The position numbers were made by a program, and so were the translations under genes. Below the pieces are notes generated by a model that made no database searches, was not told the origin of the DNA, and worked only from the letters and a program-made list of their open reading frames with translations. A stretch of 64,000 nt of DNA, taken from NCBI GenBank assembly GCA_002704915.1, contig PAIP01000075.1, positions 1 through 64,000 on the forward strand, read 5' to 3'. Below, one piece after another: positions 1,672 to 15,817 of the stretch. The stretch is from Parvularcula sp. Lineage in GTDB: Bacteria; Pseudomonadota; Alphaproteobacteria; Caulobacterales; Parvularculaceae. Each line of letters opens with the position of its first letter. Position 1 is the first letter of the stretch.

Positions 1672-3048
1672 ATGTTCAATGCGGAATACAACCCATTCGG
1701 AAAGAGGCTCGCGGAGCTGGAGGCGACCGATCTCGAAAAGTTGCGTCAGGTTTCCGAGGGCTGGTACATCGAATATAAGTCGGCGCTCCCTACGCCGAAC
1801 AAAGTAGCCAAAGCCGTGGCGGCTTTTGCGAATACATATGGCGGTTGGCTCTTTATAGGAATTGAAGAAGCCCAAAACCGTCAACGCACAGCCGGAGGCT
1901 TTCCTGGATTAGACGCCACCAAAATTGCTGGAGAAGATGAACGCCTACGGAATTCTATAGCCGCCAATATTTTTCCGACGCCTTATTTTGAGACCAAGCA
2001 CATATACGGGTCGACGGACGCGACATTACCCCCTTCCAGAGCGGTGATTGTAATTTTCGTTCCCCGTAGCTCCGAGACGCCTCATATTCACTCCGATGGC
2101 CGCATATATCGTCGGGTTGGCGATCAATCCGATCCCAAACATGAAGTCGATCCGTACCAAGTCCAAAAGTTGTCCGCACGTAAGGCTGACTTAGAGAGCA
2201 AAGTAGAAGAACGACTTGCTCTTGCCCCTCCGTTACCGCAAGGCGAGAGGGGGCTTTCCCTTGTCGATGTTATTATCAGGCCGCGGCCTTGGGGAGAAAG
2301 ACTCCCCGATCATGAGCTAACATATGAAGATTTTTATGATGTGATGGCGAACGATTCCGTAATGCCTATTTCAAATTGCTTTACGTCTCCTTACGGCTTT
2401 ATCGGGCGGCAAAGCGCGGGTGAAGTTCAACTTGAGTACAACGCTGTTTGGCAATATCACCATGACGGGCTTTCGCTCGTTACAATGCCGTTGCTACACT
2501 TCTCAGAGAATTCGCCCCCGGATAAACACCTGCAATACCTTCAGTACTATTCACAGGGGCCTGCTTATCTATCGGAGTATGAAAAAAGAGGGCTGAAGGG
2601 GTATCCCGTCATCGATCTCAACTGGCTGCTTGCCTTTCTCACCGGTGTCATAAAAAAACACGCGGTCATTGAAAACAAGTCAAAATTGCCGCCTCCGTAT
2701 GAAGCCAAGTTGCGCATTCGGAACACAAGCAGGGTAGTCCCGTTCTTGGGTGTTAAATCCTACCTGGATTTCATTGGGAAAAGCGGAATTCCATTTATTA
2801 CGACCGCCGATCTGCAGTTTCCACCCGGACGGGGATTTTCTCAATTGGCCGCCGCTTCTGACACCGAAGCGATAGATCCCGTGGGGATAAACGTCGGCGT
2901 GTTGTTTGCCCTCGCGCTGAACTGTGTCGGCATACCGATACATGTGAGCGGCATCGATGGCGGCGATGGTGCAAAACTAAACGAGGTTGTGAACATTACT
3001 GCTGAGGCAAAGAACGTTCAGAATATCATAAATGGGCAGACCGGCTAA
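1672..3048 (+). CDS. AlbA_2 / Schlafen AAA_4-like putative DNA-binding protein
   Basis: N-terminal 'EYKSALPTPNKVAKAVAAFANTYGGWLFIGIEE' is typical of AlbA_2 domains. Confidence 0.75.
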   Translation: MFNAEYNPFGKRLAELEATDLEKLRQVSEGWYIEYKSALPTPNKVAKAVAAFANTYGGWLFIGIEEAQNRQRTAGGFPGLDATKIAGEDERLRNSIAANIFPTPYFETKHIYGSTDATLPPSRAVIVIFVPRSSETPHIHSDGRIYRRVGDQSDPKHEVDPYQVQKLSARKADLESKVEERLALAPPLPQGERGLSLVDVIIRPRPWGERLPDHELTYEDFYDVMANDSVMPISNCFTSPYGFIGRQSAGEVQLEYNAVWQYHHDGLSLVTMPLLHFSENSPPDKHLQYLQYYSQGPAYLSEYEKRGLKGYPVIDLNWLLAFLTGVIKKHAVIENKSKLPPPYEAKLRIRNTSRVVPFLGVKSYLDFIGKSGIPFITTADLQFPPGRGFSQLAAASDTEAIDPVGINVGVLFALALNCVGIPIHVSGIDGGDGAKLNEVVNITAEAKNVQNIINGQTG

Positions 3049-3192: not shown

Positions 3193-3960
3193 CTATGTTT
3201 GATGGTTGCCAGTCTCGGGGGCTTTTGCTTCTGTCGAACGGGAAAACAGTAGTGAGAGTTCACGTTGGTCAATTTTTTCCGGCAAATCGGTAATATACGG
3301 TCGAAGCGATGCAACCGCCTTCAGCGTGTTTGAAGTTATTTTATCGAAAAAATCATCTCGGGCTTGTTTGTCTTGAAATACGCCAGCCGAATCGCTGCGA
3401 TTGAAATTTGTAGCATTGTTCTCGCTATTTTTTGCGGCGTCGGCAGTGTCTAAGGCGTCATTGTGTAGATCAATGTGCGCATTTTGAAGATCCAAATAGA
3501 CTGCCCCGATCTCCGGCCCGAAAATCGAAGCCGAAACAAATGATTTTTGGAGACAGTCTGAGAACAAAGGGTCTTTTTCTTCCAGGCAAGACAAAACGCC
3601 ATGCGCTCCAAAGTAGAATGTTTGGGCCGGAGATAGCTTGTCAATTGTCCCTGAGAAATTCAGCGCCTTCATACCTTTGGCAATTCCTGCCTTGTGAGAA
3701 ACATATACAAGGACTTGAGTGAGCGCATAAGACTTATCAGTAATGTCTTTCATATAATCGATCGCGAGTTCTCGATCATGCTGATATCGTGCTTTCTGCT
3801 TCCAGAGCTGAAATGTCCTGAAAGCGACAAGACCAAGCAGGAGTGTCGCGCCAGCGGTAAGTATATTTGCCATCGCTCCCCAAAATTGAAATGTGAGAGT
3901 CCAATCGAGTCCATTAGGATAGAATCTGGAGCTGAATTCAGTCACAATTTTAAATCCCAT
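3193..3960 (-). CDS. Hypothetical protein with one predicted N-terminal TM helix, retron-linked
   Basis: 255-aa ORF 22 bp downstream of the RT gene on the same strand; hydrophobic segment 'AMANILTAGATLLLGLVAF'. Confidence 0.75.
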   Translation of the reverse strand: MGFKIVTEFSSRFYPNGLDWTLTFQFWGAMANILTAGATLLLGLVAFRTFQLWKQKARYQHDRELAIDYMKDITDKSYALTQVLVYVSHKAGIAKGMKALNFSGTIDKLSPAQTFYFGAHGVLSCLEEKDPLFSDCLQKSFVSASIFGPEIGAVYLDLQNAHIDLHNDALDTADAAKNSENNATNFNRSDSAGVFQDKQARDDFFDKITSNTLKAVASLRPYITDLPEKIDQRELSLLFSRSTEAKAPETGNHQT

Positions 3961-3982
3961 CTTTAGGGCGTAGTTGGCGGGC

Positions 3983-5743
3983 TCAAGTGCCGATTAATGC
4001 CGCGCTTCGCTCTTTGTTCATCATACGTGAACTGTAATCCGAAATCGCACCTTCAATGGCATTCAGCAAAGGTTCGAAGCCCGCGAAATCCGGCGCTTGT
4101 GCAAGTTTGGCTACGACTTCCTCTGCGAACCGGGATTTCCCGTAACTGGTTTCGTCGCCGTGGTCTTTTTTTATATCAAATGGTTTGCCTTTGACTTTTT
4201 GCGATTTTAGCCGATCTGAAAACAGATCTTCTATGCAGGTTTTTGCCTTTTCGCCAACATGCGGAGTCTTCACTAGATAAAGATTATCGACGATATGGAA
4301 CATGCATTGTGGCGTTCCAGCCTTCACCTCTAGCTCGCTTCGCTTGTTGGCGGCTTTGAGGATTCTATCGACGCCGTCATCGTTATCCGCAATGACAATA
4401 ACGGGAGCCGAAAGCGGACGGTGACGGTACAGCTTAAGTCGATTGCTGTAGCTTTCTATCAGCTTGGTCAATTGGCTTGCGGATGAACCGAGTTCCAGCA
4501 CGGTGTTGTTCATATACGAAGCAGGCAGAAACCGGATCTGGCGCTTGGATTTGCCCTTTTCCTCAGATGCCAGTTGGGGGTGGAGCGCTCCTCGCGCTTT
4601 TAGCGCGCTTTTCAGATACATGACATCGGTTTTGCCTTCCGTGACGATTAGAGGCGCTTCTGGCGCTACACAGTATTTATAAAAGAGGAAACGACGATAT
4701 AATTCTTTGACGGCGCGCGGTGTTTTGAAATTTTCACGTTTATTAAGTTGCTCGGAGCGGTCGCGACGGGCTTTTACGAAATAAAGATGGGCGAGACGCC
4801 CTTCGAGGGGCGCCAATTCGGAAATCCATTTCGGGGCGCCGGACGGGTCTAGTTCACCTCCCGGGACAAAATACTTGCCGGTAGAGAATAAAGTATGCGT
4901 CATGCTTCGAATGGTACGGTAGGCCGGTTGGCTGATATTTATCTTTTCGTTGATAACGAGGCCAGTCGCTTCTTGCCGGGAACCGCATATCTGCATGCGA
5001 GTCTTGGCCGTATTAATTTTGAACCCTGCATTTTTAATTTCGTCGCGCAACGATCTCATCAAGCGCCATTTGTGCGGCGAGGTTGCAATCTTCTTTGCTA
5101 GCTTTGGGGGAAATGTGCGCTGCGCTGTTGAGAAAGTGAGATCATCGACGTAACGGGTGTATGTGCATCCGGTGCTTTTCGCGAGACGGGCTAGGCGAAC
5201 ATCGAGGATCCGCGCAATCAGGTTCGATATAACGGGCGAGCAGGGGCTTCCCTGCGGAAGCCTGCCTTCGTGACATGCAATCTGGGCGATCGTTGTGGCC
5301 GCTTCATCCGTAAGTGCAAAATTGCTGTCTTTTATGAAGAATCCGCGGACGCGGCCGAAATTGATTGTCCCAAAAAAATCTGACAGGTCGATGTTAAGGA
5401 CATAGCGATGTCGACGGTGCGGCACTGCATTCGTAACAATACTTCGCCCCCGGTGATAACCGTGGCTAATGCTGCGACGGTTGGGTGTTTCTGATTCTAT
5501 TTCTTCCAGGCAATCATAAAGCACGGCTGCAAGTTGCGTTTGAAGCAATTTCAAACGCGGTTCCGGCGCCTCGATCCGCCGTTCTCCGCCCCCCTTCTTG
5601 GGTATGGTGAAAATTGAGTACTTGTCTGCTGCGGGCGTTTTATAAAGGACATACGCCAGGCCCTTAGGAGTGAAATGGAGTAGTTTCGCTAGGTCGGAAC
5701 GGGTTTTCGCAGCTTTTAATTCATCCAGTCGTCCCATTCCCAC
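3983..5743 (-). CDS. Retron-type reverse transcriptase with C-terminal TOPRIM-like domain
   Basis: RT catalytic motif RYVDDLTFS; retron-type NAVPH (NAxxH) and ATGLVIN (VTG-like) motifs; C-terminus has 'LIVTEGKTDVMYLKSAL' and 'PVIVIADNDDGVDRI' (TOPRIM E and DxD-like). Confidence 0.9.
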   Translation of the reverse strand: MGMGRLDELKAAKTRSDLAKLLHFTPKGLAYVLYKTPAADKYSIFTIPKKGGGERRIEAPEPRLKLLQTQLAAVLYDCLEEIESETPNRRSISHGYHRGRSIVTNAVPHRRHRYVLNIDLSDFFGTINFGRVRGFFIKDSNFALTDEAATTIAQIACHEGRLPQGSPCSPVISNLIARILDVRLARLAKSTGCTYTRYVDDLTFSTAQRTFPPKLAKKIATSPHKWRLMRSLRDEIKNAGFKINTAKTRMQICGSRQEATGLVINEKINISQPAYRTIRSMTHTLFSTGKYFVPGGELDPSGAPKWISELAPLEGRLAHLYFVKARRDRSEQLNKRENFKTPRAVKELYRRFLFYKYCVAPEAPLIVTEGKTDVMYLKSALKARGALHPQLASEEKGKSKRQIRFLPASYMNNTVLELGSSASQLTKLIESYSNRLKLYRHRPLSAPVIVIADNDDGVDRILKAANKRSELEVKAGTPQCMFHIVDNLYLVKTPHVGEKAKTCIEDLFSDRLKSQKVKGKPFDIKKDHGDETSYGKSRFAEEVVAKLAQAPDFAGFEPLLNAIEGAISDYSSRMMNKERSAALIGT

Positions 5744-5781
5744 CCTCAGCTCAAAAGCAACCGTTTCCTACAGTATGAAAA

Positions 5782-5932
5782 AACCCACAGGCACTCCTTT
5801 GCGATACGCATAGATGTGCAGTCCATGATAACGCTGGACAACACTGTACAGCACTGGGATGGCGTTGGGAGCAGCGTCGCCAACATTGTTTTCATACGCC
5901 GCGATTCGCGACGATAAGTCTGCCTGTGGGTT
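5782..5932 (-). ncRNA. Candidate retron msr-msd ncRNA
   Basis: Perfect 12-bp inverted repeat AACCCACAGGCA/TGCCTGTGGGTT (5921-5932 / 5782-5793) enclosing 127 nt; internal hairpins at 5897-5913 and 5821-5839; ends 38 nt upstream of the RT start. Confidence 0.65.
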
Positions 5933-6169
5933 CTCGTATAGACGGCCGCTGATTCCAGCCTGCACACAAGACTTTCAGTCCACGCCTTCCTATCGCTTGA
6001 CCGTGATTTTGTAGCCTTTCTCAATGTCCATCGTGTGTAAGAGACACGCACTCGTGTCGAATCAAAACGTGTCGCCCATTCCAACGGCGAAAGTCGGAAA
6101 AACCTAGATAAGCAGAGATGTAAATCCCATGCAGGCGGGGCCGGGCGGACGGCGCGTCTGCCCGAAAGC

Positions 6170-6250
6170 GCCGGCCGCGCAAGGCGGCGGTTCTTTATCT
6201 GCTTTAAATCAGACTGAAAACCTCCGACCTGGCCGCCTTGCGCGGCCGGC
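6170..6250. repeat. 19-bp perfect inverted repeat with 43-nt AT-richer spacer upstream of ardA
   Basis: GCCGGCCGCGCAAGGCGGC (6170-6188) versus GCCGCCTTGCGCGGCCGGC (6232-6250). Confidence 0.85.
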
Positions 6251-6330
6251 TCGTTCTTCCGGGCGGTCCGGCCTTCTCGCCGCCCGACCCCGCCTTCGCG
6301 GGAATTTGCGGGGCGGGGAGGAGGTTGAGA

Positions 6331-6927
6331 ATGTCTTGTTCCAACGAGAAACTGGCGCCCGCGGGGAGGGCCCGCGAGGTGGCCGCGGACGTAAGCGACA
6401 ACGCTGCTGCGGATAGCGCGGCGCGTCCGCGGATATATGTAGCGTGCCTCGCCGCCTACAATAACGGCCGGTTGCATGGAGCTTGGATTGAATGCAGCGA
6501 CGCGGGCGACGTCCGCGAGGCTGTCGCCGCCATGTTGGCGGCGAGCCCGGAGCCGAACGCCGAAGAATGGGCGATCCATGATTATGACGGCTTCGAGGGC
6601 GCGAGCGTTTCCGAATATACCGGGTTTGATGACGTATGCGCCCTCGCGGAATTCATCGGCGAGCATGGGAGCCTCGGCGCCAAACTCTATGCGCATTTCG
6701 GCGAAGACCTCAACGAGGCGATCGCCGCGTTTGAGGAATATGCGGGCGAATTCAAATCCGCCGCCGATTTCGCCGAGGACCTGATCCGCGAGACCGGCCC
6801 CGAAATCCCCAAAGCCCTCGAATTCTATATCGACTGGGCTTCGCTCGCCCGCGACATGGAGCTGAATGGCGAGATTCTCGCTTTCGAGACGGCGATCGAC
6901 GAAGTCCACATCTTCTGGGCGCGGTGA
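6331..6927 (+). CDS. ardA: Antirestriction protein ArdA
   Basis: 'PRIYVACLAAYNNGRLHGAWIE', 'EEWAIHDYDGFEG' and 'FEEYAGEF..AEDLI' are ArdA hallmarks; start chosen inside ORF 6238-6927. Confidence 0.9.
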   Translation: MSCSNEKLAPAGRAREVAADVSDNAAADSAARPRIYVACLAAYNNGRLHGAWIECSDAGDVREAVAAMLAASPEPNAEEWAIHDYDGFEGASVSEYTGFDDVCALAEFIGEHGSLGAKLYAHFGEDLNEAIAAFEEYAGEFKSAADFAEDLIRETGPEIPKALEFYIDWASLARDMELNGEILAFETAIDEVHIFWAR

Positions 6928-7382
6928 TGGGGATGGGCGACGACCAGAAACCCGGACCCACCGCGGCTGACCGGGAAAGCGGCTGGGCTGGTTCTTCACT
7001 GGCCGACCGGATCAGGCGGTATGACCTCTCGATTGGCGCGCGGCTGCGCGACGCGCGTACCGCCAAAAGGAAATCGCAGGACTGGCTGGCGCAAGCTACG
7101 GGCGTCTCATACCAGTCGATCCAGCGCTACGAACGCGGGGCTGCGATCAGCGCGGGCCGCCTCGTCGAAGCGGCGGACGCCCTCGACGTCTCTGTTGCGT
7201 TCCTGATGCGCGATATCGTGAACCGCGAGACCTACCCGCTGACGAAGACGCGAGACCTCGGCAAAAGCCGCTCCGCGCTCTCCAACGAAGCCTATCACGC
7301 TGCCAGGCTCCTCGATGAGGTGCGCGACCGTGACATCCGCCGAAGCCTGATCACGATCATCGAAAGGCTCGCGGCCGTTTAG
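6924..7382 (+). CDS. XRE-family helix-turn-helix regulator
   Basis: 'IGARLRDARTAKRKSQDWLAQATGVSYQSIQRYERGAAISAGRLVEAADAL'; overlaps ardA stop by 4 bp. Confidence 0.9.
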   Translation: MMGMGDDQKPGPTAADRESGWAGSSLADRIRRYDLSIGARLRDARTAKRKSQDWLAQATGVSYQSIQRYERGAAISAGRLVEAADALDVSVAFLMRDIVNRETYPLTKTRDLGKSRSALSNEAYHAARLLDEVRDRDIRRSLITIIERLAAV

Positions 7383-8125: not shown

Positions 8126-8426
8126 GGCGCATCTCTCAACAGTTATCGGAAAGCCGCTCCGGGCGATGCCCGGGGCGGCTATTACGCTTGAACAGGCTTA
8201 TGCCGCGATAGGGGAGCGGGCTTAAACAACGTTAGACCGTGTCGGTTTCTACCGGTATCCGTAATCGTCTTGCATGGTCTGCATCGCGCGCCGAAAGTGC
8301 CATAACGAATTCAACAAGTCTTTTTTTGGAGCTGCAGTAAGATGGATTATAGCAAATCCGGCCCTTGAAGATGTCATCTTCTCAATAATCATTGCAAACG
8401 ACAGTAAACTGTATTCAAAAGGTCCA

Positions 8427-9398
8427 ATGGTGCTCCAGCGAGAAACAGACATCAGAATTATAATCGAACGGTGTTCCATTTTGCGGAATGTTATCGAAGA
8501 CTCGTCGGCTCTGAATTTGACAAGCATTAATGTCATTTCAGAGAATTTCTTTCGCGATCTTTTGAACTTACTTCTGGGAACCGGACTCGAAAATTTAAAC
8601 GCCACCTTAGACAACGCGGCGGCGATTGATTTGGGAGACGATAGGACGAAGCTTTGTGTTCAGGTAACCGCCACCTCGGGAAAACCCAAAATAGCAAAAA
8701 CTGTAAACACATTCGCTGAACATGATCTTCAAAATAAGTATGACAGATTGGTCGTCTTCGTAGCCACAAAGAAAAAAAACTATCAGGCTGATTTCATTTC
8801 AGACAAACACAATAAGCACATTCTAGATTTGAAAAGAGATGTATGGGATTGGACTGACGTCTACAGGCTTGCAAAGGATCTAAAGCCAAGCAAGCTAACC
8901 GAACTCAGAAAGTTCATTGAAGAGAACATAGTAGTTGATGCCCCCAAAAATCCAATAAGGGAGGTCGCAACTTTCATAGACCTAATGCAAATCTTGAGTG
9001 ATGAAACTCATTCCGAGGCTGGAAAAGGCGTTCTCACTGAGCCTGACCCAGATAAAAAAATTGAAAAGAGGTTTAGCGCGCATTCAGGTTTCCTATTAGA
9101 TGAGTATGGAAAATACTATGCCGAATACGGCGCTGTGCTCGAAGAGACCTTAATCAAGGGCGAGTTGGGGGCGGCTCGAATGAGGAGGCTTGGGCTTCAT
9201 CTCGGAACGAAAAGTGATGAGTTACTCACGGATAATAAGAACGATCCCCAAAAGGCGTTGGATGCTCTGGTGCATTTTTATCTAAGCGCGCTACAGGAAT
9301 CGGGAAAAAATTCTGACCAAGGTGCAATTCGATTTTTTATGTTATATCAAATGATTAGATGCTATGTTTTTCCGAATGAGGGGAGCGGCATTGGCTAA
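8427..9398 (+). CDS. SMEK-domain protein, ABC-3C system component
   Basis: 'ENFFRDLLNLLLGTGLENLNATLDNAAAIDLGDDRTKLCVQVTATSGKPKIAKTVNTF' resembles the SMEK domain; start chosen inside ORF 8274-9398. Confidence 0.75.
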   Translation: MVLQRETDIRIIIERCSILRNVIEDSSALNLTSINVISENFFRDLLNLLLGTGLENLNATLDNAAAIDLGDDRTKLCVQVTATSGKPKIAKTVNTFAEHDLQNKYDRLVVFVATKKKNYQADFISDKHNKHILDLKRDVWDWTDVYRLAKDLKPSKLTELRKFIEENIVVDAPKNPIREVATFIDLMQILSDETHSEAGKGVLTEPDPDKKIEKRFSAHSGFLLDEYGKYYAEYGAVLEETLIKGELGAARMRRLGLHLGTKSDELLTDNKNDPQKALDALVHFYLSALQESGKNSDQGAIRFFMLYQMIRCYVFPNEGSGIG

Positions 9399-9639
9399 TA
9401 TATTCTCAGGTAACGAGCATCTTCAATCACTGCCTCCCGTGGTGGGCCGTGAGATCATGATGCTTTTGAACAAATCGGAAGAACGCCGAATGAGCCTCTT
9501 TGATTTGTTGGATAAACTGAAAACACGGCCATGGTTCTCGAGCAAAGCATTTTATTTCGCGCTGATATTCCTATTTGTGACAGGTTTGGTGACCTTTGAT
9601 GGCGCTTACGTATCGGTTGAGCAACATGCTTCAAATTAG
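9364..9639 (+). CDS. ABC-3C-type middle component protein
   Basis: 91-aa protein ('REIMMLLNKSEERRMSLFDLLDKLKTRPWFSSKAFYFALIFLFVTGLVTFDGAYV') overlapping both the SMEK and ABC genes. Confidence 0.7.
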   Translation: MFFRMRGAALANIFSGNEHLQSLPPVVGREIMMLLNKSEERRMSLFDLLDKLKTRPWFSSKAFYFALIFLFVTGLVTFDGAYVSVEQHASN

Positions 9640-11335
9640 GAAGCTGTACTCAACCCCGGAATTATTCGCTCCAGTGACGTTCCTGCCGGGCGTAAACTTG
9701 ATTTTGGGTGAAACGAGCGAAAGCAGCAAAAAGACCAACGGCGTAGGAAAATCCATCGCCATCGAGTTTTTAAATTTTGCACTCTTAAATAATTATGCCG
9801 ATTCCAGAGTAAAGAAAGTGCCGGAATCGGTTTTTCCTTTAAAAGCATATGCTTGCGTTGATCTCGTGATCAACGGGAATGAAGTTACTATTCAGCGCAG
9901 TCGAGAGTTTGAAAAACGCCCCACGATAATCATTGAGGGAAAAAGCCTTGCATTTTCGAAACTTGATGATGCACGCCAATACATCGAAAACCTCCTTTTT
10001 CGACATGAAGAAAATGAACGTCCTTCATTCCGTTCGATGCTGTCCATATTGATGCGTGACGAAAGGTCGGAGTTTAAATCGATAGTTAACGGCCTTAATA
10101 CCTCCGTACATGCGCCAGACGACTACACGCCGCATCTTTACCTGCTCGGCATCGATGTTCGAATCTACAAAAGAATTAAGAACATTCAGTCGGAACTCAA
10201 AAGGCTTCAAGATAAAATTCGTGAGTTTAAGAAAAGCGTTGTACTCCTAAGGAACAAGAAACTTGAGGACGCTCGGGCCGATTTGAATGAATTGGATGCG
10301 GAAGTGGCGGTGATTCAGAATGATCTAGAGAGCCTCGAAAATTTTAATTCGAACGAAGAACTGCAGCAGGATGTTCAGCGCCTAGATTCAAGGATCGCCG
10401 AGAAGCGACGCGAGGCTGCGATTCTGCTAGACAGTATCGCGCGTTTGAAGCCGGTTGAACGTGAAAGGCTGGATATCTCCCACGAAGAACTATCGGAATA
10501 CTACAACGACCTTAAGGCTGGCTTAGGAGATCTAGTTTCCAAAGATTTGGATGAGCTCTACGCGTTCAAACAAAAAGTGTACAATTTCCAAAATGATGTT
10601 CTTAAGAGGCGTCGTGCCGCGCTCGAGAGCGACCTTGAGGATATCAGAGAAGAACTCAAGTCGCTTGACAAGGAGTATGAGCAAAAATTACGTACGCTTG
10701 ATCAAAAAGGGGCTCTAAGAACGCTAAAGCAAACTATCGCCAGTTTTCAAGAGAAGTCCGATGAGTTGGCCGACCTGCGAAGCTTTATCGTTGGTCACGA
10801 CAAGGCTCTGTCAGACAAGCGCGAAAAAACCGTGGAGAAAGACACCCAAGTTCTTCACCTGCAATCCGATATTGACCAACTGGAAGGGAATCGAGCGAGC
10901 TTCGAAGAAACTATATTGTCGATCCACAATTTCGTTATGGGCAATCGTCAGGCGTCTTTTACGATCAAGACAGTTGATGCGGCTCAAGTGGTAGAAATAT
11001 TGCTTAGAATCGACAGTGATGGAAGCCACAGTGTTGATCGCGAAAAAACGTTCATTTATGACTTTGCGTTGCTCATTAATGACGTGACCAAACAGCGTCA
11101 TCTAGGATTTTTGGTGCATGACAACATATTTGATGTCGATACCGATACACTTAAACGGAGTCTGAAATTTATTTTAAATCAGTCTACACAACTGGGTGCT
11201 CAATATATACTAACCCTGAATTCAGACCGTGTTTCATCGGATGCACCAGACCTGTTGGAGGCGCTCGATAAATGCGTCAGAGCGCGATATACAAAGTCGA
11301 GCAGATTCCTTGGCTGCAAATACCAAGAAGTATAA
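9596..11335 (+). CDS. DUF2326-type ABC/SMC-like ATPase, ABC-3C system
   Basis: Walker-A-like 'GETSESSKKTNGVGKSIAIEFLNFAL', long coiled coil, C-terminal 'FLVHDNIFDVDTDTLKRSLKFI..QYILTLNSD'. Confidence 0.8.
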   Translation: MMALTYRLSNMLQIRKLYSTPELFAPVTFLPGVNLILGETSESSKKTNGVGKSIAIEFLNFALLNNYADSRVKKVPESVFPLKAYACVDLVINGNEVTIQRSREFEKRPTIIIEGKSLAFSKLDDARQYIENLLFRHEENERPSFRSMLSILMRDERSEFKSIVNGLNTSVHAPDDYTPHLYLLGIDVRIYKRIKNIQSELKRLQDKIREFKKSVVLLRNKKLEDARADLNELDAEVAVIQNDLESLENFNSNEELQQDVQRLDSRIAEKRREAAILLDSIARLKPVERERLDISHEELSEYYNDLKAGLGDLVSKDLDELYAFKQKVYNFQNDVLKRRRAALESDLEDIREELKSLDKEYEQKLRTLDQKGALRTLKQTIASFQEKSDELADLRSFIVGHDKALSDKREKTVEKDTQVLHLQSDIDQLEGNRASFEETILSIHNFVMGNRQASFTIKTVDAAQVVEILLRIDSDGSHSVDREKTFIYDFALLINDVTKQRHLGFLVHDNIFDVDTDTLKRSLKFILNQSTQLGAQYILTLNSDRVSSDAPDLLEALDKCVRARYTKSSRFLGCKYQEV

Positions 11336-11573: not shown

Positions 11574-12485
11574 TCACTCCGTACAAGTTAATTTCACTAG
11601 GCTCGCCAGCAGTTGTGTCCGCTCCCCGAGCCAGGCAAGTTCGTCGTCGGCAATGACGTAGTGCTTCGAATAGCGGGCTTTCACGTAGGCATCTTTCAAA
11701 CGCTCAAAGCTACGGCGCTGGAAGCGGTCTTCTTCCGGCCACACCTCGCGAAAGCGCGCGTTCTTTTCTTCAACGAGGGAACGAAGTTTCTTCAGATTGT
11801 GCGTAGATGGACTGTAGAGCGTCGAAGTTAAAAGATAGCACCCATAGAGCCGTTCAACGGCTTGATGAAGGGTAAAGGCGGCATCTCTTACCCAGCGCTT
11901 GCCTCCTTTATTCGTTTCGACCTCAAAGATTTCCAACCGTCGCATTGCGCTATCGAACCATTCGTCGAAATAATCGTTTGCGATTTCATATGCTTCTTTT
12001 GCGTCTAGCGGTTTCGGATCAACAAAACGATACCCGTCCAGTTCGTAAAGGGCGATGCCGTCGCGGACGATGTCGACGAAGAAATACTGCCCTTGCGCCA
12101 GCTTGTCGTTCACCTCCCCGAGTGAGTGGACAATGAGGCCGACAGGTGTCTTGATAGTTCTGTCCCGGATGATGCGGTCTTCGGCCCGGTACCAGTAAGT
12201 CGCCATCTCCGTGAGTTGCTTGTAGTTCACGACCACAAGGAGATCGAAATCCGACTGATAGCCCTTGGTAGTCTGGCCGGCTTCGTCGACCCAGTCGCCT
12301 CTCGCATATGAACCGAAGAGCACGATTTTGAGAATCCGGCCCTTCTTGTCGTATTCCTTCTGGCTGTTTTGCCCCCGCGCTAGATCGAATTCCTCGAACA
12401 GGATCTCCTGAATTCGCGCGAGCTCACGCTGCTTCTTCTCGGGAAGATGTTCAAGGCTCGTTTTCATGTGCTGCAGTGGGGCCAT
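11574..12485 (-). CDS. Nucleotidyltransferase-HEPN fusion protein
   Basis: MNT motif 'FGSYARGDWVDEAG..YQSDFDLLVVV' and C-terminal HEPN-like 'AFTLHQAVERLYGCYLLTSTLYSPSTHNLKKLRSL'. Confidence 0.85.
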   Translation of the reverse strand: MAPLQHMKTSLEHLPEKKQRELARIQEILFEEFDLARGQNSQKEYDKKGRILKIVLFGSYARGDWVDEAGQTTKGYQSDFDLLVVVNYKQLTEMATYWYRAEDRIIRDRTIKTPVGLIVHSLGEVNDKLAQGQYFFVDIVRDGIALYELDGYRFVDPKPLDAKEAYEIANDYFDEWFDSAMRRLEIFEVETNKGGKRWVRDAAFTLHQAVERLYGCYLLTSTLYSPSTHNLKKLRSLVEEKNARFREVWPEEDRFQRRSFERLKDAYVKARYSKHYVIADDELAWLGERTQLLASLVKLTCTE

Positions 12486-12683
12486 GGGTGGATCGTAAAG
12501 TGTCGTGAGAATGTTGCCAAGCGATATGCGAGTACTGACCGGGTAAATAGCATTTCGCCTCGCCCTTCAACAATGGGGTTGCCAGCGGACTTTTTGAGTG
12601 ATGACGACGAGTGATTTTAAACACGACATTTTGGCTTCAAGTTCTTGCAGGTTCGTGGCCCACTTTGGACTGATTGCAAGAGT

Positions 12684-12738
12684 ACTACCTTAGTAGTCAC
12701 ACCCCGGCGCCTAAAGGCGCATACCGGCCTTTGGCCGG
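12684..12738. other. Three consecutive small hairpins, possible oriT or regulatory site
   Basis: ACTAC-CTTA-GTAGT (12684-12697), GCGCC-TAAA-GGCGC (12707-12720), CCGGCC-TTT-GGCCGG (12724-12738). Confidence 0.4.
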
Positions 12739-12893
12739 GGGGGAATCAAGCCCAACAATCTCAGGGCGTTGGATTTCCTCCGCTCCGTGTACAAACCCGC
12801 GAATTCGCTGTGTACGTTGTGCAGGGCGGCCGATGAAAATGCGCGCATCAACAATGCGTTGCCAGCCGGTTACGCTGTACACGCATCAAAATG

Positions 12894-14027
12894 CTACTCC
12901 CGTTCGAGGTTCTTTTCCTTCTGACGCAGGTTAAATCGTAGTCCCGACATACGAGAAGGGCCATCCAGGGTAGCCGCCAGACGCTGCAAGAGACGGGTGA
13001 TTTTCGGCGACGTGATGGTCTTTTCGGACCGCGTTTCTGCGTGCTTTTCCGGCTGATTCTGGCCCGGATTTGAGGGTGAATCCGAGCGCATTTTCAGCGA
13101 ATTTTCACGCCCGCGCGCCTTCATAACCTCCGGTTTTGGTGTCAAGTTTTGCTGTTTTGCGAGATCGAATCCGAGCGTTTTCGCTTCCTCCCGCCACATG
13201 TTCAGCAGCGCTTCGCGGTTCATTTCCTGCTTGGGTTTTCGGGTGCGAAGCGCCGCCATCTCCATGCCTTTCGCGGTCGAATAGCCGTAGGTTTCGGCCG
13301 CATTTTCGATAGCTTCGCGGCGCTTGGAGAACGCGCGCTCGACATCTCTCGGGATAGCTGTCACGCAGAAACTGTCCGCCTCTCTTGTGATATTTATTCC
13401 TGATCTTTCGAGCCCGTTTGCGAATTCCGCCCGGTAAATCCAGCCCGCTTCCTTCTGCGCCAGGTATAGCTCGCGGCCGACGATTGCGCCCCAGCTCCCG
13501 TCATGGCGGGGCGCCAGATTGAAGATGAATGCATGAGTATGGAGCTGGGGGTCGAGGTCGCGGCTCGTATGATGATCGAAGGCCGCGACCAGTAGCCCGG
13601 CGGTTCTTTCTTTTATGCTTCCACGCCGTCCGCGCCGGGCCCAGGCATGATTGTTTTCGAGGTGGTGGAGCGCTTTGTTCACTGCCTTTTGGTGCGCGGC
13701 TTCGATGGTTTGGCGCTGGTTTTCGTTCGAAAGAGCCCACAACACCGAGGCAGATTTCGGGGCGCTGAAGGTCATGTCCCAGCCCGCCGTATGGGCGATT
13801 CCGTTCGCGAGAATAAGCCGTTCTCCCGTCTTCGGATCGAGGCCTTCAAGCGCCGCTTCGAAGTCGGATTTCGAGACGGAGCCCTCAAGGGAAAGGCGCT
13901 CGGCGGCGCGCCCCTCCCAGCGACCGGGGGCCTCGCCCTCGCGGGCGTAATAGTCGTCCTTGCCCATATGCTGATAGTAGGCCGCCGCCGCCGCGACGCT
14001 TTTCCGGACCGAGATCGAGGCGACCAT
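12894..14027 (-). CDS. MobF/TrwC-type relaxase, short form without helicase region
   Basis: 'GEAPGRWEGRAAERLSLEGSV', 'GWDMTFSAPKSASVLWAL', 'DPQLHTHAFIFN' relaxase motifs; only 377 aa. Confidence 0.85.
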   Translation of the reverse strand: MVASISVRKSVAAAAAYYQHMGKDDYYAREGEAPGRWEGRAAERLSLEGSVSKSDFEAALEGLDPKTGERLILANGIAHTAGWDMTFSAPKSASVLWALSNENQRQTIEAAHQKAVNKALHHLENNHAWARRGRRGSIKERTAGLLVAAFDHHTSRDLDPQLHTHAFIFNLAPRHDGSWGAIVGRELYLAQKEAGWIYRAEFANGLERSGINITREADSFCVTAIPRDVERAFSKRREAIENAAETYGYSTAKGMEMAALRTRKPKQEMNREALLNMWREEAKTLGFDLAKQQNLTPKPEVMKARGRENSLKMRSDSPSNPGQNQPEKHAETRSEKTITSPKITRLLQRLAATLDGPSRMSGLRFNLRQKEKNLERE

Positions 14028-15817
14028 CAGTCGTCCTTGTCGCCCCGGATGAAAGCGGCGTCGGCTTTCGAGATCGCGCTTTCGGGCTCGGAATTTGTGG
14101 TGCGCTTGCCGTATTTAGCGCGTTCCGTCGCCCGATAAGTCCACTGCGCCGGCTGGGAAGCGGGCCGCAATTGCTGCTGGCGAACATAGGGAAGATCGAG
14201 TTCATAGGCGTCCTTTCCGGGGCCGAGCAGCGCGATCCGGATGCTTTTTTTGCGGGGCCCGAGGCGGTTTGAAAGGTCTGCGGCGGTGACGACGCGGCGG
14301 GTTTCGCGATGAATGCTTTCCGTGACCGTCGTGTGGGCGCCGCTGGTTCCGGTGCTGCGCACATTATATTCAACGTCCTGATCGCCGATCATCAGGCTCG
14401 CTTCCTCCGAGCCGCGTCCGAAATTGAGCCGCGTAATGACCTGCGTTCCGATCATCCCGATCCAGGAATCGGCGCGCTCGCGGCCGTAAACGGCGCGGAT
14501 CTGGGCGATGTCCTGCGCCCCCAGAACCACGATCACGCCCTTCGAGCGGCCCATATCAAGGAAGGTCGAGAAGTCGCTCATGCGCGGCAATTGCGGGAAT
14601 TCGTCGAGGAAGAGCCAGACCCGCCGCGTACGGGATTCCGGGAGCGACGGGCTGCCGACGGCGGATGAAAGAAGCCCCAGTAGACCGCTGATCCATGCGT
14701 TCGACAGCTCCGGATATTTGGCGTCGCGCTGCAGGATCACCGGCTTCGCATGGTCCATATGCAGCCACTCATTGATCGAAAATCGCGGCGGATTCTCGTG
14801 GCCGCCCCAGCTTTCAGCGAGCGCGCTCACCACATTCAGATGCGCCTGAAACGTCGTCAGCACGCTTTGCGCGGTCTTGCTGGCGGGGTCTTTCAGCACG
14901 CGCATGGCTTCGGGATGATAGGATTGTGCGGTCTTGAAGAGCGCCGCCGCATCCTGAAGAACGATGTTTCTGAGATCGGCCCAGCTCCATTGTTCGGGCA
15001 TTTCGGCCTGCAATTGCGCGATGCAGGCGACGAAGATTTCCCGCGCGGCGTCCGACCAGATCGGATCATTGCTCGCCGGGATAAACCGCGCCGCCAGCTC
15101 CCGCGCATCCTGTTTGGTACGGCAGTCGGCGGCGACGTCCCAGACGAAAGAGCGCTCGTCCTGGGGCGCGACCAGCGCCGGTTCCGTCGGCATGGTCGCG
15201 GTCATGTCTCCCTTCGTGTCGAGCACCAGCACCTTGTCGCCGCGCTGGATGGCGGCGTGCATCAGATGCAGCATGGTCTGGGTTTTGCCCGCGCCGACGC
15301 TGCCCCAGATCAGCCAGTGACGGGTCTCGCGCTCGGCGCTGATGTAAATGCCCGGCGGAAATTCGAGGCCCTTTCCGAAGCGCCGGCATTCGGCGGCGCA
15401 GGCGCTTCGAAGTTGCGCCCGCGCCTCGCCACCCGTGAGATAGCGCCGCCCACGGACGACCTTTGCCTTTGGCCGCTCCATGCGGGCGGCAAGCGCGAAA
15501 GCAAACAGGGCAAGGACGCCGGTTCCGGACAGCGAAATCAGCGCCCAATAACGAACGTTGAAGCCAGCAAGTGAGCCCGTGTCGAAGAAACTGGCGCGGC
15601 AAACGCGCCAGACATGAGCCGCGTAATCATCCAAAAAGAACGCGCGCGCCCGGTATTGCGCGCATTGAGATACAAAATTCGGGTCGTATCTGGCGAGGCC
15701 GCCTTCCGGCGCCTGGCCAACGGGCGTCCATCGCTTGAAGCCGGTTTCGAAGACGGACATAGCCGCGGCGAAGCTGGCGAGCGAGGCGAGAAACAGGAGT
15801 TTCTTTGTGTTACTCAT
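14027..15817 (-). CDS. Type IV coupling protein (VirD4/TraD-like)
   Basis: Walker A 'GSVGAGKTQTMLHLMHAAIQRGDKVLVLDTKGD' and Walker B 'VWLFLDEFPQLPRM'; overlaps the relaxase start by 1 bp. Confidence 0.9.
   Translation of the reverse strand: MSNTKKLLFLASLASFAAAMSVFETGFKRWTPVGQAPEGGLARYDPNFVSQCAQYRARAFFLDDYAAHVWRVCRASFFDTGSLAGFNVRYWALISLSGTGVLALFAFALAARMERPKAKVVRGRRYLTGGEARAQLRSACAAECRRFGKGLEFPPGIYISAERETRHWLIWGSVGAGKTQTMLHLMHAAIQRGDKVLVLDTKGDMTATMPTEPALVAPQDERSFVWDVAADCRTKQDARELAARFIPASNDPIWSDAAREIFVACIAQLQAEMPEQWSWADLRNIVLQDAAALFKTAQSYHPEAMRVLKDPASKTAQSVLTTFQAHLNVVSALAESWGGHENPPRFSINEWLHMDHAKPVILQRDAKYPELSNAWISGLLGLLSSAVGSPSLPESRTRRVWLFLDEFPQLPRMSDFSTFLDMGRSKGVIVVLGAQDIAQIRAVYGRERADSWIGMIGTQVITRLNFGRGSEEASLMIGDQDVEYNVRSTGTSGAHTTVTESIHRETRRVVTAADLSNRLGPRKKSIRIALLGPGKDAYELDLPYVRQQQLRPASQPAQWTYRATERAKYGKRTTNSEPESAISKADAAFIRGDKDD

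Follow-up and report, generated by a model that had tools for sequence, protein, structure and literature searches.

A retron of the Ec67/Eco2 RT-Toprim family and its msr-msd RNA in a member of the Parvularculaceae

Introduction

Retrons of the described Ec67/Eco2 family, which are bacterial anti-phage elements, are defined by a reverse transcriptase (RT) fused to a C-terminal Toprim domain. PADLOC lists this family as RT-Toprim_I-C and describes it as a 'single gene' system. We use the type I-C label as it stands in the PADLOC and NCBIfam model names. The mechanism of Eco2 has been studied experimentally, revealing a trimeric autoinhibited complex with msDNA and an RNase activity of the Toprim domain, for which DenB is the likely phage nuclease trigger (PMC12405507). 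In retrons of the RT-TIR (type XII) and RT-protease (type XI) kinds, the RT domain is related and likewise joined to an effector, but the C-terminal effector is a different one.

A sequence-only reading of a 64,000-nucleotide stretch of Parvularcula sp. DNA (contig PAIP01000075.1, hereafter the window) had proposed a retron in which both the fusion of RT and nuclease and a co-directional membrane protein were offered as unusual. Our analysis upheld the retron, the non-coding RNA (ncRNA) and the Toprim domain, whereas neither of the two unusual points stood. The locus is very probably a single-gene type I-C (Ec67/Eco2-type) retron with a putative Eco2-like mode of action, and the 255-aa gene beside it is most likely unrelated. 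The window locus adds a member from Parvularculaceae-type Alphaproteobacteria, with a verified ncRNA, to the Ec67/Eco2 family and opens no new question.

Results and Discussion

The RT-Toprim fusion protein

The RT gene and the Toprim part of its product were located as follows.

3983..5743 (-): RT-Toprim fusion protein, 586 aa, matched by NF038237, PADLOC RT-Toprim_I-C and the Eco2 structures 9i2f/9lm3
3983..4669 (-): Toprim part of the fusion, approximately residues 358-586, with E369, D373, D453, D455 and E505 aligned to the Eco2 catalytic residues

The open reading frame, 5743..3983(-), reaches 586 aa from a GTG start, and an ATG lies two codons downstream of the GTG. The NCBIfam Ec67 model for retron Ec67 RT/endonuclease fusions (NF038237) matched the protein over its whole length with 670 bits, the cut-off being 450, and the top PADLOC model was RT-Toprim_I-C with 711.6 bits. 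The RT-TIR and RT-protease models reached 326 and 317 bits, respectively, under half of the 712 bits of the best model. Among solved structures, the nearest is the Ec67 (Eco2) retron protein of E. coli (9i2f/9lm3; E ~3e-115, query residues 4-576). The RT motifs noted earlier were found as NAVPH at residue 105, YVDD at residue 198 and ATGL as the VTG-like motif, and the Toprim motifs EGKTD and IADNDDG at residues 369 and 451. In the RT tree, the window RT nests among RT-Toprim loci, beside L002 and L015. A contig scan of genomes with the window RT returned solely the relative from Parvularculaceae UBA4496 and one weak fragment. Because the score is well above the curated cut-off, RT-Toprim_I-C is the best model, and the YxDD, F46, H281 and Toprim E/D/DxD/E positions of Eco2 are conserved in the aligned sequence, we assign the protein by homology to the known Ec67/Eco2 family rather than to a new system. 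The fusion, taken at first for an unusual composition, is thus the family's own layout.

Residue comparison with Eco2

The window protein and Eco2 share 39% identity over 568 aligned residues, with the fused layout alike from end to end. We used this alignment to locate, in the window protein, the residues examined by the Eco2 study (PMC12405507). The RT positions F46, K66, Y199, D201, D202 and H281 of Eco2 are identical. In the Toprim domain, E374, D378, D460, D462 and E515 of Eco2 correspond to E369, D373, D453, D455 and E505, which bears out the Toprim reading of the C-terminus together with the whole-length family matches. The metal B residue S513 of Eco2 is replaced by C503. The same Cys occurs at the equivalent position in L002 and L016, and C503 is therefore probably a natural variant. 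Elsewhere, R70 of Eco2 is replaced by T69 and Y333 by Ser. K562 of the Eco2 study could not be matched to the alignment numbering, which has D at that place; the conserved YGK motif keeps its Lys (K546) in the window protein.

The msr-msd RNA

The anatomy of a retron is present at the window locus. An ncRNA lies directly upstream of the RT gene, its 3' end 39 nt from the RT start.

5783..5931 (-): retron ncRNA (msr-msd), 149 nt, resting on covariance-model matches, identity with L002 and the fold z
5921..5931 (-): inverted repeat a1, ACCCACAGGCA, perfect complement of a2 over 11 bp
5920 (-): predicted branching guanosine in CAGA context; the AGA after a1 is invariant in 13/13 homologues
5897..5913 (-): msr stem-loop CGUCGCG-AAU-CGCGGCG, a 7-bp hairpin whose helix is conserved in homologues
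5794..5896 (-): region with the msd template, placed between the msr hairpin and a2; the coordinates are those of the enclosing region, not of the msd ends
5783..5793 (-): inverted repeat a2, TGCCTGTGGGT, complement of a1

We compared this region with the upstream regions of 13 other RT-Toprim genes of alpha-, beta- and gammaproteobacterial origin. They have in common the a1/a2 repeat, with AGA invariably following a1, together with a short msr hairpin and, ahead of a2, a GCGTAAGAGTG-like box; the window has the corresponding GC..AAAGGAGT box just 5' of a2. In the alignment of the homologues, from which the window was left out, the a1/a2 helix was 100% paired, with two-sided (compensatory) changes at 11 of its 13 pairs, and the msr helix showed two-sided changes at six of seven pairs. 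Neither any of 500 shuffles nor any slid version attained the covariation score and the paired fraction of this alignment.

From the 13 other loci we built a covariance model, which gave a single match in the 64-kb window, at 5933..5781(-) with 74.9 bits and an E-value of 1.9e-15, and one match, among the candidates scored, in the whole 4.5-Mb genome. With the closest relative removed from the model, the window ncRNA was still matched (66.1 bits, E 6.6e-14). The model recognises type I-C ncRNAs, where the Rfam search of the window gave no match at all, at gathering or relaxed thresholds. Furthermore, the RNA fold of the region was better than 200/200 shuffles (z = -3.6). The DNA fold of the guessed msd stretch was no better than shuffles, and the msd ends were therefore not assigned. 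Judged by conservation, covariation and fold, the candidate msr-msd proposed upstream of the RT is real.

The likeness to Eco2 extends to the RNA, where both systems have the a1/a2 repeat, a branch G, one short msr hairpin and the msd directly upstream of the RT. The predicted branch G at 5920 matches rG15 of Eco2 in its position immediately past the inverted repeat, and the AAU loop of the msr hairpin is identical to that reported for Eco2 (PMC12405507). The closest relative, the RT-Toprim retron of UBA4496 (L002/L011; L002 is of the same genus as the window), has an RT 63% identical to that of the window and an ncRNA with 86% mean column identity.

These features also bear on whether the locus could be a decayed or inactive remnant. 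The Cys in place of Ser at a metal-binding position of the Toprim domain would fit such decay, but the full-length open frame, the complete set of RT motifs, the perfect a1/a2 repeat and the conserved msr hairpin all speak against it, and we consider a remnant extremely improbable.

Putative mode of action

Homology to Eco2 suggests how the retron might work. The ncRNA (5931..5783(-)) would fold through the a1/a2 repeat, and the RT would use the branch G at 5920 as its priming site to copy the msd into msDNA. The msDNA would remain bound to the RT-Toprim protein and hold the Toprim nuclease off. Damage to the msDNA by a phage nuclease or a similar activity could then release the Toprim domain to cut RNA, by which phage production would halt.

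The 255-aa single-TM neighbour

The window locus also differs from Eco2 in a gene for a protein with one transmembrane (TM) segment immediately downstream of the RT.

3193..3960 (-): 255-aa single-TM protein, co-directional with the RT, starting 22 nt past the RT stop; judged a neighbour and not part of the retron

The gene is present as described in the sequence-only reading, at 3960..3193(-), and the protein has one clearly hydrophobic stretch near the N terminus, at residues ~26-52. It had no match in Pfam, NCBIfam or PADLOC and no significant match in PHROG. An AlphaFold2 model from single-sequence input was all helical with a pLDDT of 46.8, too low for a fold search.

The same reading had suggested that this protein may be a membrane effector. 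The locus could then represent a new two-gene type I-C variant, in which the single-TM protein would be co-expressed with RT-Toprim and act as its dedicated membrane effector or regulator. The arrangement agrees with this idea in that the gene is co-directional, starts 22 nt past the RT stop without a terminator-like site found in between, and encodes one TM segment. However, RT-Toprim already has its own effector, and homologous loci without the partner, which the reading had itself named as counter-evidence, are what we found: the gene is missing beside the RT in L002/L011 and in all other RT-Toprim loci examined. In these loci, the next co-directional ORF of at least 80 aa lies from 81 to more than 2000 nt away and is dissimilar to the 255-aa protein; in L002/L011, a type I restriction methyltransferase-like gene, recognised by sequence inspection, follows ~200 nt downstream of the RT. 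Moreover, no relative was found beyond its own genome in 385 genomes of the class and 399 of the phylum, nor in plasmid records, phage records or viral contigs. We thus regard the two-gene variant as very unlikely.

A family-wide search returned one match, restricted to the N-terminal part, in another genome (G015).

L014:1489-2163 (+): 224-aa single-TM protein, N terminus similar to that of the 255-aa window protein

The two proteins are 29% identical over ~60 N-terminal residues. Ahead of the 224-aa gene is an ORF that we took to be relaxase-like, and the 3.2 kb retrieved showed no RT gene. Since the 255-aa gene is absent from the other RT-Toprim loci examined and the lone relative found occurs in a mobile-element context, it is best read as a neighbour. 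By these sequence comparisons, the protein is not conserved as a part of the retron, and its gene is most likely an unrelated one from the same defence/mobile region. The operon-like 22-nt gap makes a partner role for it possible; a lineage-specific recruitment as a second membrane effector or regulator, on the same transcript as RT-Toprim, has in our view little likelihood. As a side observation, the 224-aa and 255-aa proteins may point to a loosely related family of small TM proteins from mobile elements.

Genomic surroundings

On the best reading, the type I-C retron is part of a defence cluster with conjugation-type genes close by, and its neighbourhood looks like such a cluster.

1672-3048 (+): Schlafen AlbA_2 domain protein of 458 aa, adjoining the retron and convergent with the 255-aa gene
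5746-6999 (-): 417-aa ORF that overlaps the retron ncRNA and runs antisense to ArdA
8274-11335 (+): possible further defence pair, a SMEK-domain protein (374 aa) with an AAA/DUF2326 protein after it
6238-7382 (+) and 11574-15817 (-): genes for ArdA antirestriction protein, HTH regulator, HEPN/nucleotidyltransferase, TrwC relaxase and TrwB-type coupling protein

The 417-aa ORF is probably not a gene. The SMEK-domain protein is matched over part of a PADLOC Argonaute-associated model, and the genes at 6238-7382 (+) and 11574-15817 (-) are of conjugation type with defence and anti-defence cargo.
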